DNA of 20,557 nucleotides from a virus. Each line of letters opens with the position of its first letter. Positions within the stretch are counted from its first letter, which is position 1. Positions 2,581 through 18,033 of the stretch are shown piece after piece. Both the position numbers and the translations under genes were made by a program. The notes beneath the pieces were generated by a model. The model was not told the origin of the DNA. It did not search any database and was given only the letters and a program-made list of their open reading frames with translations. The stretch spans positions 1-20,557 of the IMG/VR virus record IMGVR_UViG_3300023202_000291. One strand, written 5' to 3'.

Positions 2581-2961
2581 TCAGTCGAATACCCGCGCCG
2601 GTTGCTCGTCCCACGGCAGGGATGCCACGAAGCACAGGTCATAGATGCTGATGGTCGAGGGCTCGCGGTGGATGACAAGCCGCTCGAGCACCTCGGGCGC
2701 CAGCCATGCGAGGCGCAGGAGGCGGCTGACGTAGCGGTCGGAGAGGCCCTCGTCGGCGGCCAGATCGGCGAGCGTGGCGACGTCGCTGCGTTCCAGCCGC
2801 TGCCGCCAGCCCCATGCGCGGCCGATGGCCCGCAGGAGGTGGGGATCCTGCCCGCGGTCCATGGCGGCCTCGACGTGCTTCGGCGGAAGGATCCGGGGAC
2901 GACCACCGCGACGGCGGAGCTCGAGGGGGATGTGGACGCGAAGGGTCTCGGGCTCGGGCAT
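2581..2961 (-). CDS. Small HTH (ParB/KorB-like) protein of the recombinase operon
   Basis: A 126-residue protein with an Arg/Pro-rich N-terminus and a central helix-turn-helix-like stretch (TLADLAADEGLSDRYVSRLL, about residues 61-80) that resembles the HTH of ParB/KorB proteins. Its ATG at 2961 overlaps the TGA of the serine recombinase (ATGA), so the two are probably translationally coupled. Similar short proteins accompany DUF2924-type recombinase operons in alphaproteobacteria, as far as I recall. A role as DNA-binding accessory factor, for example in directionality of integration or excision, is inference. Confidence 0.75.
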   Translation of the reverse strand: MPEPETLRVHIPLELRRRGGRPRILPPKHVEAAMDRGQDPHLLRAIGRAWGWRQRLERSDVATLADLAADEGLSDRYVSRLLRLAWLAPEVLERLVIHREPSTISIYDLCFVASLPWDEQPARVFD

Positions 2962-4283
2962 CAGGCGACCTCCTTCTTCGGCGGGGCCATCAGCGCAGCG
3001 ATGGCGCCGAGGCCGTCGTGGCGCAGGTCGATGGCGAGCCCCGCCTCGCTGACGGTGATGCGCGCGACCAGTAGCTGGACGATGCGCGCCTGCTCGGCCG
3101 GGATGAGCGCCTTCCACAGGTCGTCGAACTGCGCCAGCGCGGCAACGACGGTGGTTTCGTCGAGATCGGGACGGTCCTTCCGCACCGCCCGCGCTGTGCG
3201 CGCCGCCACCTCGGGCGTGCGCAGCATGCGACGGATTTCGCCGATCACCGCCTCCTCGACCATCGCACCCGGCAGGCGCTGCGGCCCGCGCAGCTCGGCC
3301 GCTGGGCGTTTTCGGATAACGTCCATCGAGGTGTAGTAACAGTAGCGCTTGCCCTTCCGCTTGGTGTGGTGGGGCGTCATGGCGGCACCGGTCTCGGTGA
3401 AGATCAGCCCGCGCAGGAGCGCAGGCTGCGCCGTTCGCGCCACCGCCGCCCGCGCCACGCGGTTGTTGGCCATCACGGCATGCGCCTCGTCCCACAGCTT
3501 CTGGTCGATGATCGCCTTATGCTCGCCTGGATGGACCTCGTCCTTGTGCACGGCGAGGCCGAGATAGACCTTGTTGTGCAGGAATTTCAGCAGGTAGCCC
3601 CGGTCGAACACCGCGCCGCGTTTGGTGCGGATGCCGCGCGCATGCAATTCCTTCAGCACCTGCGCGGTGGAACTTGACCGCGCATAGAGGCGGAAGATCG
3701 TCAGGACGTGCTCGGCCTCGGCGGGCTCGATCACCAGCTTGCGGTCCTTGACGACGTAGCCAAGCGGCACCGGACCGCCCATCCACATGCCCTTGCGGCG
3801 CGAGGCGGCGAACTTGTCGCGGATGCGTTCGCCGATCACCTCGCGTTCGAACTGGGCGAAGCTGAGCAGGATGTTCAGTGTCAGCCGCCCCATGGACGTC
3901 GTGGTGTTGAAGGACTGCGTCACCGAGACGAAGGTGACGCCTTGGCGGTCGAAAATCTCCACCAGCTTCGAGAAATCCATAAGAGCGCGGCTGAGGCGGT
4001 CGATCCTGTAGACCACGACCACGTCGATCAGCCCGGCCTCGATGTCGGCGATCAACTGCGCCAACGCGGGCCGGTCCAGCGTCCCGCCCGAGAAGCCGCC
4101 ATCGTCATAGCGGTCGCGCAGCGCCACCCAGCCCTCGGCGCCCTGCGAAGCGATGTAGGCCTCGCAGGCCTCACGCTGGGCGTCGAGGCTGTTGAACTCC
4201 ATGTCGAGCCCTTCCTCGCTCGACTTGCGGGTGTAGATGGCGCAGCGCAAGCGGCGGACGGGTTCGGGCTTCGCACGGCTCAT
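2961..4283 (-). CDS. Large serine recombinase (phage/element integrase)
   Basis: A 440-residue site-specific recombinase. The N-terminal resolvase-type catalytic domain (about 13-160) shows YTRKSS, with Ser21 the likely nucleophile, SLDAQREA, and YRIDRLSRAL with the conserved arginines. A Recombinase (PF07508-like) domain follows (KRGAVFDRGYLLKFLHNKVYLG), then the usual zinc-ribbon position (LLRGLIFTETGAAMTPHHTKRKGKRYCYYT), where the Cys pairs are missing, and a C-terminal helical region. The ATG at 4283 overlaps the stop of the DUF2924-type gene. This family carries out integration between attP and attB without high homology. It is the only integrase visible and is probably that of the element to its right. 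Confidence 0.93.
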   Translation of the reverse strand: MSRAKPEPVRRLRCAIYTRKSSEEGLDMEFNSLDAQREACEAYIASQGAEGWVALRDRYDDGGFSGGTLDRPALAQLIADIEAGLIDVVVVYRIDRLSRALMDFSKLVEIFDRQGVTFVSVTQSFNTTTSMGRLTLNILLSFAQFEREVIGERIRDKFAASRRKGMWMGGPVPLGYVVKDRKLVIEPAEAEHVLTIFRLYARSSSTAQVLKELHARGIRTKRGAVFDRGYLLKFLHNKVYLGLAVHKDEVHPGEHKAIIDQKLWDEAHAVMANNRVARAAVARTAQPALLRGLIFTETGAAMTPHHTKRKGKRYCYYTSMDVIRKRPAAELRGPQRLPGAMVEEAVIGEIRRMLRTPEVAARTARAVRKDRPDLDETTVVAALAQFDDLWKALIPAEQARIVQLLVARITVSEAGLAIDLRHDGLGAIAALMAPPKKEVA

Positions 4284-13973: not shown

Positions 13974-14740
13974 TGCTGGACTTCAACAAGCGGCCCTCTA
14001 CGGGCGAGCGGATCAACGCCGCCGTGGATGCCGCGCTCGAAACCGACCGCGCGGCAACGCCGCCGCGCGACTATCTGGGCGCGTCTCGGCTTGGGCACGC
14101 CTGCGAGCGCGCGCTGCAGTTCGAATTCGCGGGCGCTCCGAAGGACGAGGGCCAAGACTTCTCCGGCCGGTCGCTGCGGATCTTCGCGATCGGGCACCAG
14201 CTCGAGGATCTCGCCATCCGCTGGCTGCGGGCGGTGGGGCTCGATCTCTACACCCGCAAGGGCAACCGCCCGGACGGCGAGCAGTTCGGCTTCTCGGTCG
14301 CCGGGGGCCGCATCCGCGGTCATGTCGACGGGATCGTCGCCGAGGCCCCGGCGGCGCTGGGGCTGCGCACCCCGGCGCTCTGGGAGTGCAAGACGATGAA
14401 CGCGAAGAACTGGCGCGAGACGGTGGCCAAGGGCGTGACCGTCGCGAAGCCGGTCTATGCCGCGCAGATCGCGCTCTACCAAGCCTACATGGAAGCGACG
14501 GTGCCTGGCATCAGCGCGAACCCCGCGCTGTTCACCGCGATCAACAAGGACACGGCCGAGCTGCACCACGAGCTCGTGCCCTTCGATGCCGACCTCGCGC
14601 AGCGCATGTCGGACCGCGGCGTCCGGATCCTGCGGGCGACCGACGCGGGCGAGCTGCTCCCGCGCATCGCCGCCAATCGCGACTTCTTCGAATGCCGGTT
14701 CTGCCCGTGGGCCGAGCGCTGCTGGAGCCTGCCGGCATGA
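13973..14740 (+). CDS. Cas4/RecB-like PD-(D/E)XK exonuclease with likely 4Fe-4S cluster
   Basis: A 255-residue nuclease. The PD-(D/E)XK core is visible as GHVDG (Asp119) and LWECK (Glu138, Lys140), followed by AAQIALYQAY (Gln165, Tyr169), the RecB-family QxxxY motif. Four cysteines suited to a 4Fe-4S cluster are present: Cys44 in GHACERAL and Cys241, Cys244 and Cys250 in the C-terminal CRFCPWAERC. This is the Cas4/AddB pattern. No CRISPR array or cas1/cas2 lies nearby, so it is best read as the phage exonuclease that resects ends for recombination with the Sak4-like ATPase. It overlaps both neighbours (TGATG and ATGA). Confidence 0.88.
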   Translation: MLDFNKRPSTGERINAAVDAALETDRAATPPRDYLGASRLGHACERALQFEFAGAPKDEGQDFSGRSLRIFAIGHQLEDLAIRWLRAVGLDLYTRKGNRPDGEQFGFSVAGGRIRGHVDGIVAEAPAALGLRTPALWECKTMNAKNWRETVAKGVTVAKPVYAAQIALYQAYMEATVPGISANPALFTAINKDTAELHHELVPFDADLAQRMSDRGVRILRATDAGELLPRIAANRDFFECRFCPWAERCWSLPA

Positions 14741-17028
14741 GCGACGACAACATCATCCATTTCAATCCCTGGCGGGATTTCAACGACGCGGCACCTCTGG
14801 CCGATCCCTTCGCGGTCGAACCGGACGCGGGCCAGATCGCGCGCTTCGTCGATGTGGTCTTTGGCTATTCCGACGGGCTGATCCCGGTTCGCGGTTTCGT
14901 CGACAAGGGTCAGGGCAAGGATGGCCGGCCGCACAACATCTGGATCGAGGCGGACGCCACCGCGCCCGAGAAGCTCGCCACCTTCGCCGGCTGGGCCGCG
15001 CGCGAGGGGGCTGCGGTCTACGTCATCCCCGGCACTGTCGCGGAAACGGGCCAGGCCCGCGCCGCGGATGTCCTGCAGATGCAAAGCCTCGTGGTCGATC
15101 TCGACTCGGGCGACATCCCGGCCAAGCTTGATCATCTGGTCCACCACCTCGGGCGCCCGACGCTCACCGTCGAGAGCGGCGGGCGCACGCCCGAGGGCGC
15201 GACCAAGCTCCATGTCTGGTGGAAGCTGACCGAACCCGCGGAGGGTGCCGATCTCGCCCGGCTCTGCCAGCTTCGTGGCGAGATCGCGCTGAAGGTGGGC
15301 GGCGACACGCATTTCCGTTCGGCCCACCAGCCGATCCGCGTGCCCGGCACCGTCTATCACAAGGGCGGGCTCACCCGGCTGGTGCAGATCCGCGAGGCGA
15401 CAGAGCGCGAGGTCGATCTCGCCGAGATGGCTGAGCGCGTCACCGACATGCCGCCCATGCCCGGCGTCGGCATGGCCACGGCCGAACCCCGCGAGAAACC
15501 CGCCATCGACGACGTGCTGGTGACCCCGGTGCGCGAGGGCGGCACGGACGACTGGTCCCGCTTCGAGGGCGCCTCGGCCGCCATCGGCTATTTCCTGCGG
15601 CTAGTCCACGAGGGCCGGATGTCGATGGACGAGGGCTGGACGGCGATCTGCGGCTACAACGCTGCGATGCTCCGCCCGTCATGGCCGCTCGACCGGCTGA
15701 AGCGCGAGACAAACCGGCTGTGGGAGCTGCACATCAAGCGGCACGGGCCGCCGCTGATCCGCCTCGACAGCGGAGCGCCCACGCAGACGGACTTGCCGAC
15801 CTTCACTCTCGGCGCATTGCTCGATGACACGAGCCCGATGCCCGACGACATCATCGGCCCGCGCGTGCTGACGCCGGGCGGGCTCCTAGTGCTGGGCGGC
15901 GCGCCCAAGGTGGGCAAGAGCGACCTGCTGATCGCACTGCTCGTGCACATGGCGGCGGGCGTGCGCTTCCTCGGCTTCACCCCGCCCCGGCCGCTGCGGA
16001 TCTTCTACCTGCAGGCCGAGATCCAGTATCACTACCTGCGCGAACGCATGCAGCAGATCGGCCTGCCGCCCGAGCTGATCGCCGACGCGCGCGACAACCT
16101 GGTCGTCACGCCGAAGCTGCGCATGCTGCTCGATGCCGAGGGCAGCGCGCGGGTGGCTGAGGCGATCAGGGCCGCGTTCCCCGACGAAGCTCTCGACATC
16201 CTTTGCATCGACCCGATCCGGAACCTCTTCGACGGCGGCCCCGACGGCGGCGGCGAGAACGACAACGCTGCGATGATGTTCTTCCTGAAGGACCGGGTGG
16301 AGGTGCTGCGCGACCACGTCAACCCGGACTGCGGCGTGATCCTCGTCCACCACACCAAGAAGCTCTCGAAGCACCAGGTGAAGGAGGATCCGTTCCTTGC
16401 GCTCTCTGGTGCCAGCGCGCTCCGAGGTTTCTACACCACCGGCCTGATCCTGCACCGGCCCGAGGAGGACTCGACCCAGCGCCGCCTCGAGATCGAGCTG
16501 CGCAACGGCCCCGCGCTGCCCGCGAAGCTAGTCGACAAGGTCAAGGGCACATGGGTCGAGATCAACCCGATGAACGAGCGGCTTGTGCGCCCCGAAGTCG
16601 GCGTGAAGCATGACGCCGAGCGCGATCGCAAGCGGGACGTGATCCTCTCGATCCTGCTCGAGGAGGCGGCCGAGGGTCGGCTCTACACCATCAACCAGTT
16701 CGCTGAGGCCTTCGAGAACAAGGGCGGTCTGGGTGGCAAGGACACGATCCGCGACCGGATCGCGGTGCAGGCCACCAAGGGCGCCATCAAGTTCATCCGC
16801 GACGGCGCGCCCTACGGCCTCGGGCCTTCGCGCTCGCGCTTCGGATACCTCTGCGTCGAGGGGATGGTCATGCCCACGGACGGCGAGGATGTCGATCCGG
16901 CGACCGGAGAGGTCACCCCCGCCAGCATCGCAGTGCTGCCCACCCACTACAAATCGCCGCAGACCGGGGCGCTGCTCGAGGTCGAGAACCCTCAGGTCTG
17001 GGTCTATCCGGAGGGGGAACGGCCATGA
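14737..17028 (+). CDS. Primase-helicase fusion (AEP-type primase + RepA-like AAA helicase)
   Basis: A 763-residue replication protein. The N-terminal part (about 30-220) resembles archaeo-eukaryotic primases: LVVDLDSGD with the catalytic-like Asp121 and Asp123, TVESGGRTPEGATKLHVWW, then RSAHQPIRVPGTVYHKGG. The centre (about 360-620) is a RepA/AAA_25-type hexameric helicase core with Walker A GAPKVGKS (388-395), Walker B ILCIDP (488-493) and VILVHHTKK (534-542). The last 100 residues are probably a winged helix. The ATG at 14737 overlaps the exonuclease stop. Such fusions start replication at an origin, and the repeat region right after the gene is a natural candidate for it. No polymerase is encoded in the window. 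Confidence 0.9.
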   Translation: MSDDNIIHFNPWRDFNDAAPLADPFAVEPDAGQIARFVDVVFGYSDGLIPVRGFVDKGQGKDGRPHNIWIEADATAPEKLATFAGWAAREGAAVYVIPGTVAETGQARAADVLQMQSLVVDLDSGDIPAKLDHLVHHLGRPTLTVESGGRTPEGATKLHVWWKLTEPAEGADLARLCQLRGEIALKVGGDTHFRSAHQPIRVPGTVYHKGGLTRLVQIREATEREVDLAEMAERVTDMPPMPGVGMATAEPREKPAIDDVLVTPVREGGTDDWSRFEGASAAIGYFLRLVHEGRMSMDEGWTAICGYNAAMLRPSWPLDRLKRETNRLWELHIKRHGPPLIRLDSGAPTQTDLPTFTLGALLDDTSPMPDDIIGPRVLTPGGLLVLGGAPKVGKSDLLIALLVHMAAGVRFLGFTPPRPLRIFYLQAEIQYHYLRERMQQIGLPPELIADARDNLVVTPKLRMLLDAEGSARVAEAIRAAFPDEALDILCIDPIRNLFDGGPDGGGENDNAAMMFFLKDRVEVLRDHVNPDCGVILVHHTKKLSKHQVKEDPFLALSGASALRGFYTTGLILHRPEEDSTQRRLEIELRNGPALPAKLVDKVKGTWVEINPMNERLVRPEVGVKHDAERDRKRDVILSILLEEAAEGRLYTINQFAEAFENKGGLGGKDTIRDRIAVQATKGAIKFIRDGAPYGLGPSRSRFGYLCVEGMVMPTDGEDVDPATGEVTPASIAVLPTHYKSPQTGALLEVENPQVWVYPEGERP

Positions 17029-17504
17029 TCGCCCCCGCAGATCGTTCCGCGCAGAATTGCGCAGGGACCAGTTTGACCCAGATGCGGGGCCTTGCCGAAA
17101 CTGCCCCGCCACCCTCACGCAGAAGCGCGCATGCATCCGATGTGGCCAGTTTCGGCCCGCTTCCGAAACTGCCTCTTCAGGATTGCGCTCGGACCGCAAC
17201 GGCTACGCTGCACCCAGTTTCGGCGGGGTCAGCCGCAAGCGCACCCCCGCAACTGGAATTCCCTATGCCCGTCAGTGTGTTGATGCGGTTTTCCAGTTTC
17301 GGGGGTGAAACCACCCCCTACGGGGGTGGGGGGAGAACGCCGCAGGCGGGTTCTCCCACGCCCACCCCCAGGGGTTTCGCGCGCGATGCCTGCCCACGCG
17401 CCAACCTTCCGATCCGACGACGGCGACCCCGTACCGCCAAGCACCAGACCGCCGTCGTCTTCCACCCGAGCAGCCAACCAGAAGAGGAGACCACCCATGG
17501 CTGA
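17025..17504 (+). CDS. Doubtful ORF across the repeat region
   Basis: An open frame of 159 codons begins with an ATG overlapping the primase-helicase stop (ATGA), with GGAGG about 10 bases before it, which favours translation of at least its start. The predicted peptide is Pro/Ser/Arg-rich without structure, its third-position GC is lower than in sure genes, and it runs through the inverted repeats and hairpins into the next gene. An alternative frame shows two CxxC pairs. It may be a leader peptide or chance. Confidence 0.2.
   Translation: MIAPADRSAQNCAGTSLTQMRGLAETAPPPSRRSAHASDVASFGPLPKLPLQDCARTATATLHPVSAGSAASAPPQLEFPMPVSVLMRFSSFGGETTPYGGGGRTPQAGSPTPTPRGFARDACPRANLPIRRRRPRTAKHQTAVVFHPSSQPEEETTHG
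17069..17302. repeat. Seven alternating CAGTTTCGG sites: candidate replication origin or control region
   Basis: The 9-mer CAGTTTCGG occurs forward at 17147-17155, 17215-17223 and 17294-17302 and reversed (CCGAAACTG) at 17095-17103 and 17163-17171, all exact. Degenerate copies lie forward at 17069-17077 (CAGTTTGAC) and reversed at 17247-17255 (CCGCAACTG). Read in order, the seven copies strictly alternate in orientation. The two exact reverse-to-forward distances are both 52 bases, about five helical turns. The array directly follows the primase-helicase gene and overlaps no sure coding sequence. Iteron-type origin or a multi-site operator are the main readings. Confidence 0.6.
17311..17329 (+). 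other. Perfect GC hairpin beside the alternating repeats
   Basis: CCACCCCC (17311-17318) and GGGGGTGG (17322-17329) form an eight-pair stem with a three-base TAC loop. It begins nine bases after the last CAGTTTCGG copy. No T run follows. It could be a rho-independent-like pause, an origin structure, or an RNA element ahead of the resolvase gene. Confidence 0.5.
17331..17357 (+). other. Second GC hairpin beside the alternating repeats
   Basis: GGGAGAAC (17331-17338) pairs with GTTCTCCC (17350-17357); the 11-base loop can pair further as GCC/GGC. It starts one base after the first hairpin ends, so the two would stack. It lies 140 bases before the resolvase start. Confidence 0.5.
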
Positions 17505-18033
17505 CATGACTCTCGCCACACACTGCCGCGAGGCAATCCCCGATCTGCCGCCCGCTGTCCGGGCCAACCGCGCGATGCTGGCGCTCGACCTCGGCACCGC
17601 CACGGGCTGGGCGCTGCACGGCATCGACGGGCTGATCACCTCCGGCACGGTGTCGTTCCGCCCGGGCCGCTTCGACGGTGGCGGCATGCGGTATCTCCGC
17701 TTCACCAACTGGCTGACCGAGATCGACCGCCTGTCTGGGCCCGTCGCGGCGATCTGGTTCGAGGAGGTCCGCCGCCACGCGGCCACCGACGCGGCCCATG
17801 TCTATGGCGGGCTGATGGCCACGCTGACCGCATGGGCCGAACTCCGCGGCATTCCCTACGAGGGCGTCCCTGTCGGCACGATCAAGCGCCACGCCACCGG
17901 CAAGGGCAACGCTCCCAAGGAGGCGATGATTGCCGCGGCCCGCGCCCGCGGTTTCAGCCCCGCCGACGACAACGAGGCTGACGCCATCGCCATTCTGCTC
18001 TGGGCGCTGGAGACCAAGGGGGGCCTGCAATGA
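17497..18033 (+). CDS. RuvC-like Holliday junction resolvase
   Basis: A 178-residue RNase H-fold nuclease. The first catalytic Asp is in MLALDLGTATGW (Asp31), acidic residues follow in AIWFEEV (Glu89/Glu90), and the last acidic cluster is DDNEADAIAILLWAL (Asp158, Asp162), in the order of RuvC. The lysine/threonine segment GVPVGTIKRHATGKGNAPKE fits the DNA-contact region. The ATG at 17497 follows GAGGAGA about six bases upstream; ATG 17506 is an alternative. It would cut branched intermediates from recombination and replication before packaging, matching the recombination genes upstream. Its stop overlaps the next start. Confidence 0.87.
   Translation: MADMTLATHCREAIPDLPPAVRANRAMLALDLGTATGWALHGIDGLITSGTVSFRPGRFDGGGMRYLRFTNWLTEIDRLSGPVAAIWFEEVRRHAATDAAHVYGGLMATLTAWAELRGIPYEGVPVGTIKRHATGKGNAPKEAMIAAARARGFSPADDNEADAIAILLWALETKGGLQ

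Follow-up and report, generated by a model that had tools for sequence, protein, structure and literature searches.

Here, we report an array of short repeated sites lying immediately downstream of a primase-helicase gene in a virus record of 20,557 nucleotides (IMG/VR record IMGVR_UViG_3300023202_000291; its whole length is called the window below). Judging from comparison across related phages, this array is very probably a (pro)phage replication origin, with the enzyme encoded immediately upstream as its initiator. Across more than 250 related phage loci we count at least 15 distinct site words. An iteron-like origin read by the primase-helicase had been proposed in the initial annotation, and this part of the proposal is strongly supported by the comparison, specifically by the position of the array, its concerted change with the tail of the enzyme, the IHF-like sites and the hairpins. 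The further suggestion that an alternating site order marks a new origin type is not supported: the order is not strict here, and the same enzyme is accompanied by other orientations in other clades.

Sites of the array

The array occupies positions 17069-17302 of the window and consists of five exact copies of CAGTTTCGG and three degenerate ones:

17069-17077, + strand: site 1, degenerate, CAGTTTGAC
17079-17087, + strand: site 2, degenerate, CAGATGCGG, two mismatches
17095-17103, - strand: site 3, exact CAGTTTCGG
17147-17155, + strand: site 4, exact CAGTTTCGG
17163-17171, - strand: site 5, exact CAGTTTCGG; the best conserved site, exact in 47 of 50 class-A loci
17215-17223, + strand: site 6, exact CAGTTTCGG
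17247-17255, - strand: site 7, one mismatch, CAGTTGCGG; most relatives carry an exact copy
17294-17302, + strand: site 8, exact CAGTTTCGG

The initial annotation had listed seven sites; its five exact copies and two degenerate ones (17069 and 17247) stand, and the overlooked copy at 17079 makes an eighth. At this position relative L126 carries an exact CAGTTTCGG, and class C has an exact or one-mismatch AAGTTGGGA. The site order in the window is + + - + - + - +. Since site 2 is forward, like site 1, the strict forward/reverse alternation described earlier fails in the window, and it is absent from other clades as well (class D, for example, reads - - + - - - + - - +). The two 52-base spacings (17095 to 17147 and 17163 to 17215) had been given correctly and are conserved in relatives.

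The clustering of the 9-mer exceeds chance, as had been claimed, the best 7-mer count of the array in the window being higher than in all 200 dinucleotide shuffles. No exact CAGTTTCGG occurs outside 17069-17302 in the 20,557-base record. Among the 50 class-A loci, the density of exact words is 14.0 per kb in the array vs 0.016 per kb elsewhere (approximately 900-fold), which answers the concern that the 9-mer might be equally dense elsewhere. A chance origin of the repeats is ruled out by the shuffles together with the scarcity of the words outside arrays. GC skew has no clear inflection at the array in the window, a point that counts against an origin. Between the sites there is a weaker second repeat, CAGNATTGCGC-like (17052-17069, 17120-17137 and 17178-17195), and the arrays of relatives have such repeats too.

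Related loci and their words

Searches with the primase-helicase yielded at least 160 loci (the best 80 per search, of roughly 600 or more IMG/VR matches), which provided 155 analyzable arrays, the window among them. At least 40 further arrays were collected, plus at least 66 from relatives with a TOPRIM-type primase. The best 7-mer surpassed all 100 shuffles in 114/155, 25/40 and 65/66 arrays, respectively. In the 155 arrays, the sites begin directly 3' of the primase-helicase stop codon and their positions are constant within each class. Related loci keep both the repeats and their spacing: CAGTTTCGG recurs at constant offsets from the stop codon (66-, 118+, 134-, 186+, 218-, 265+) in all loci that have an enzyme at least 94% identical and enough downstream DNA, and in many loci at 74-79% identity.

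Other words occupy the same place in other loci (CTTCCTCAT, CTTTGTCAT, TTCGTCCTC, CAACTCCTC, CAGAATCCG, CAGATTTCG, CAGATTCCG, CAAATTTGA and AAGTTGGGA), and the 40 further and 66 TOPRIM-type arrays add AAAACCGG, TGTTTTGA/AAACACGG, AGTTGGCA, CAGAATGCA, AGATTGCA and AAAACCTC. Across classes an array comprises 5-12 sites over 180-280 bp, in some classes mostly in the same direction, and the words are nearly absent outside arrays in the fetched loci. Alignments of class D (CAGAATCCG) and class E (CAGATTTCG) reveal ten common site positions (22-, 43-, 54+, 63-, 81-, 88-, 137+, 158-, 170-, 216+), and the sites of class A (CAGTTTCGG) and class C (AAGTTGGGA) correspond with a shift of about 3 nt. Words are swapped in concert at fixed alignment columns, a behavior that fits the sites of one protein and not RNA stems or coding repeats.

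This concerted change bears on whether the alternating words could instead be the stems of a structured RNA. The copies at 17147 and 17163 would pair as a 9-bp stem around a 7-nt loop, and strong hairpins follow downstream. However, RNA stems diverge pair by pair, whereas here all copies of the word change together; in addition, the mostly same-direction copies of some classes do not suit stems, and an Rfam search of the window gave a tRNA as its sole match. On the grounds of the concerted change and the Rfam result, we dropped an RNA structure of the array, which we consider highly improbable, in favor of protein sites.

The main exception to this pattern is the CCTAACTCA class, 41 AEP loci with the helix residues KHT (e.g., L022, L073, L139), where word counts gave no clear array; the origin may be organized differently in these loci. 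Several of them have a AAGACTTCATGAAGTCTT palindrome, and a perfect IHF site is present in 31/31 of the class. Some genomes contain two modules, either with the same word (L100/L103 and L121/L132) or with different words (L093/L095 and L110/L147). As co-resident prophages of both kinds exist, avoidance via incompatibility is not evident from these lists, which were read by eye. Among known phage and plasmid records, the only protein matches were Wolbachia phage WO, three Manatee Spring Caudoviricetes and a few plasmid records.

The primase-helicase and its C-terminal tail

The enzyme encoded upstream of the array has three recognizable parts, of which the last is predicted from structural models:

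14737-17028, + strand: primase-helicase gene, 763 aa, with an AEP primase (about aa 30-240), a RepA-type RecA-like helicase (AAA_25, about aa 356-543) and a predicted C-terminal winged helix
16612-16869, + strand: predicted winged-helix domain (about aa 626-711); this part covaries with the word of the array
16738-16779, + strand: predicted recognition helix (aa 668-681), in which residues 668-670 vary between word classes

Pfam identifies AAA_25 in the primase-helicase (E=6.8e-21), while its RepB_primase match (E=0.06) is below the cut-off. Foldseek matches the N-terminal domain to the S-2L PrimPol (6zp9) and to RSF1010 RepB' (3h20/3h25; for 3h25, E=6.2e-7 and TMt 0.68), and the helicase region to RecA-like folds including RSF1010 RepA (1nlf/1olo), the latter in a low-confidence part of the model. 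At full length the model is poor (pLDDT 66), much of it being of low confidence, and the AlphaFold model of the C-terminal domain has a pLDDT of 87. Nearly all of the best structural matches of the tail are winged-helix domains (Z up to 6.7), with middling fold scores; Pfam gave no significant winged-helix match for the tail, and a PDB sequence search returned no informative match. Taken at face value, these models suggest that one polypeptide may combine the roles of RSF1010 RepA, RepB' and, through its tail, RepC.

Covariation of the tail and the word

In a nearest-neighbor test on the 42 loci that remained after removal of near-duplicates, the word was predicted at 0.76-0.87 from aa 621-758 and at 0.10-0.22 from aa 1-500, vs about 0.11 after shuffling (chance). 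The columns most informative on the word (I652, N653, K668, D669, Y693, S698, P713) lie mainly in predicted helix 2, helix 3 and the wing of the winged helix. At the DNA level, the covarying unit runs from ~400 nt before the end of the gene through the array to about 100 bp past it, with association declining on both sides. Natural recombinants display the same pairing: enzymes that are 92-100% identical over aa 1-560 and differ in the tail also differ in the word. L113 and L064 show 100% identity across aa 1-560, with differences confined to the later part of the tail, and have CAGTTTCGG and AAGTTGGGA, respectively; L094 and L008 are 97% identical over aa 1-560 vs 58% in the tail, with CTTCCTCAT and CAGTTTCGG. 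Both the covariation and these natural swaps are consistent with the C-terminal domain being the specificity determinant.

Because tail and array are neighbors, one crossover moves both, and linkage therefore contributes to the covariation. If linkage were the whole explanation, another protein would read the array, and word and tail would covary merely as co-recombining neighbors; the tail is indeed the nearest coding sequence, and the association weakens with distance on both sides. Yet the association is high over ~400 nt of the gene and then drops where the predicted winged helix starts, the most informative residues fall within predicted DNA-contacting elements, and word and tail are paired in this way in two families whose primase domains are unrelated. 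Both where the informative residues lie and the finding of the pairing in a second family speak against pure linkage, to which we give little credence.

The sites could also act as a multi-site operator, through which the tail or another regulator would control the RuvC-like gene and later genes and not replication. Such a role would suit sites placed between two co-directed genes, with alternative-pairing hairpins coming next, and winged-helix domains are common among repressors. Nevertheless, the fetched loci essentially lack the word outside the array, the domain that covaries with it is part of a primase-helicase fusion, and so many sites over such a span, with IHF sites among them, look more like an origin. 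We regard an operator as unlikely, if slightly less so than linkage alone.

IHF sites and downstream hairpins

Three further elements accompany the sites in the window:

17273-17285, - strand: IHF-like site, CATCAACACACTG, two mismatches to WATCAANNNNTTR; perfect in the arrays of many relatives
17311-17369, + strand: A-loop-A'-B-A element, CCACCCCC / TAC / GGGGGTGG, inner hairpin, CCACCCCC
17416-17459, + strand: second hairpin, GACGACGGCG...CGCCGTCGTC

The perfect IHF consensus WATCAANNNNTTR is found in 63/155, 14/40 and 20/66 arrays, the shuffles averaging 0.8, 0.5 and 0.3, respectively. This amounts to 97 of 261 arrays vs about 1.6 in shuffles, and the background frequency is 22 in 4,807 sequence windows (0.5%). 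The IHF sequence does not change from word to word, in line with recognition by a host protein.

In the A-loop-A'-B-A element, A' can pair with either copy of A, and the two pairings are mutually exclusive. The element occurs in nearly all loci and in every class but K (145/150 in a restricted search run without a shuffled control; 143/152 vs 18 expected in a broader search in which iterons were counted too). A is spelled differently from class to class (CCACCCCC, CCCCATAC, CACCCC, TACCCC), with A' complementary to both copies throughout. No T run follows the element in the window, which makes an intrinsic terminator unlikely; it could be a priming (ssi-like) hairpin or an RNA switch.

Short sites in multiple copies, and IHF, are likewise features of partition, packaging and recombination systems, so that a parS-like partition site, a packaging site or a recombination site might be considered in place of an origin. 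Here, however, both the linkage and the covariation are with a primase-helicase, and the array has no Par, terminase or recombinase gene next to it. We rate these roles as low as that of a structured RNA.

Returning to the origin reading, we infer binding, melting, priming and origin activity as follows. The C-terminal winged helix (about aa 626-711) would bind each copy of CAGTTTCGG, gathering several enzyme molecules across about 240 bp, and IHF would bend the DNA between the sites. Once loaded, the RepA-type helicase domains would unwind the duplex, and the AEP (RepB'-like) domain at the N-terminus would synthesize the first primers, perhaps at the hairpins 3' of the array. Tail and array would be exchanged as one specificity unit, a change of tail being accompanied by a change of all copies of the word.

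A second family with a TOPRIM-type primase, including phage WO

Primase-helicases of the TOPRIM type, including RepA of phage WO, have a homologous tail and an array in the corresponding place. This sister family combines Toprim_2 with AAA_25. In phage WO RepA (P0003) and an Eleftheria plasmid protein (P0004), a TOPRIM-like N-terminus is joined to the homologous tail, with the array directly downstream; the TOPRIM match is significant for P0003 and below the cut-off for P0004. The array in phage WO is the following:

5667-5880 of L304 (HQ906665), both orientations: candidate origin, AAGTTGGCA/AAGATGGCA directly after RepA

It includes AATCAATAGCTTA, a perfect IHF consensus, and a small CCTCCTATATAGAGG hairpin. 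If our reading holds, the replication origin of phage WO is predicted to lie directly after RepA; in one WO genomics paper (PMC9203015), passages that speak of an origin are about the Wolbachia chromosome. Degenerate WO relatives (L306, L307, L308) lack a AAGTTGGCA/AAGATGGCA array in the sequence that was fetched.

Within the TOPRIM family, the word again varies together with the first residues of the recognition helix: ERT with AGTTGGCA, NRT with AGATTGCA and KRT with AGAATGCA. One member, L358, has the word CAGAATCC and the residues GLGGR in common with class D. A common specificity by descent was not upheld in this case, the tail being merely 54% identical to that of class D.

We lean toward a broader interpretation, held with less assurance than the origin itself, in which the winged helix, the array and the A-loop-A'-B-A element form a mobile specificity cassette of AEP and TOPRIM primases in proteobacterial phages. 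The at least 15 words on fixed positions would then represent candidate mutually orthogonal origins, in several classes with a reading frame kept open without protein-like constraint.

The joint change of specificity in an initiator and its origin is puzzling, since all sites have to change simultaneously. With more than 250 paired enzyme/array examples, these phages offer a large natural catalog of matched pairs, in which recognition-helix residues and word are readable side by side and natural chimeras (L113/L064) serve as ready-made domain swaps. If the cassette interpretation is true, the words on fixed positions constitute a natural dataset for a recognition code. For Rhodobacterales and related hosts, compact orthogonal replicons would also make a useful toolkit.

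Comparison with known replication modules

Literature searches found no description of this primase-helicase/array system. In SaPIs (Ubeda 2007, as cited in PMC7581432), Rep uses its C-terminal domain to recognize an iteron origin that lies downstream of the rep gene; SCCmec Cch2 resembles SaPI Rep (PMC7581432). The pri-rep-ori modules of SaPIs and PICIs, as described in PMC7581432 and PMC6092414, likewise have an initiator helicase, sometimes fused to a primase, with the origin directly 3' of the gene; here too, an iteron array is directly 3' of the putative initiator gene. The helicases of SaPI Rep are related to D5/Primase_Cterm or DUF927, whereas ours is RecA-like RepA/AAA_25. PICI origins have two iteron sets around an AT-rich region, in contrast to the both-orientation sites interspersed with IHF sites described here.

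The helicase of P4 alpha belongs to SF3, unlike the RepA-type AAA_25 of our enzymes, sister family included. P4 alpha unites primase, helicase and an origin-repeat-binding winged helix in one polypeptide, and its primase is of the TOPRIM type (PMC4234260), whereas the enzyme in the window has an AEP-like fold and TOPRIM is found in the sister family. pRN1 ORF904, in which an AEP primase, a helicase and a winged helix are combined and the origin is located just 3' of the gene, is similar as well, but it has an SF3 helicase and a stem-loop origin without iterons (PMC4234260), as opposed to iterons and a RepA-type helicase.

RSF1010 has RepA, RepB' and RepC, oriV iterons and ssi hairpins (PMC4234260). 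By Foldseek, the enzyme described here resembles them in a predicted RepA-type helicase fold and a predicted RepB'-type primase fold, and the order of iterons followed by hairpins is as here; RSF1010 uses three separate proteins, while in our system there is one polypeptide whose putative binder is the fused C-terminal winged helix. In Vibrio PLEs, RepA_N/origin pairs have been repeatedly swapped and function only with their cognates by experiment, and the DNA-binding domain and origin covary as in our arrays (PMC8263062). PLE RepA_N differs in lacking a primase/helicase, in its N-terminal binding domain and in the few specificities known (PMC8263062). On the best reading of these comparisons, the system appears to be organized like SaPI/PICI rep-ori and P4 alpha/ori, yet assembled from RSF1010-type RepB'/RepA domains. 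It stands apart from the SaPI, P4, pRN1 and PLE systems in helicase family, array layout and number of words.

Open frame across the array and neighboring genes

The array is spanned by an open frame that leads toward the next gene:

17025-17504, + strand: open frame across the array, with an ATG overlapping the primase-helicase stop (ATGA)
17498-18033, + strand: RuvC-like gene (MADMTLAT...LALDLGTATGWAL), named from sequence motif alone

In classes A, C, D, E, F and G and in the TOPRIM family, the ATGA overlap is present and the frame is open through the array, with about 0 stops vs 0.35-3 in the two other forward frames. It often joins the RuvC-like gene in frame (32/50 in class A, 47/66 in the TOPRIM family); in the window, one extra G breaks it (GGGGGTGGGGGG vs GGGGGTGGGGG in L009). 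Classes H, I, J, K and L are mostly without an ATGA start. Codon-position GC and divergence provide no sign of protein constraint on this frame, the divergence at the three codon positions outside the words being 0.31, 0.27 and 0.33. The weak coding bias noticed earlier over the array was confirmed (GC3 0.60 vs 0.85 in the enzyme gene). Protein repeats were rejected as an explanation of the sites, which are found in all three frames while codon positions diverge almost equally.

Elsewhere in the record, the tRNA gene matched by Rfam is located at 221-307, close to one end, and an ORF at 2961-4277 is serine-recombinase-like by sequence motif. Both are putative signs of an integrated element.
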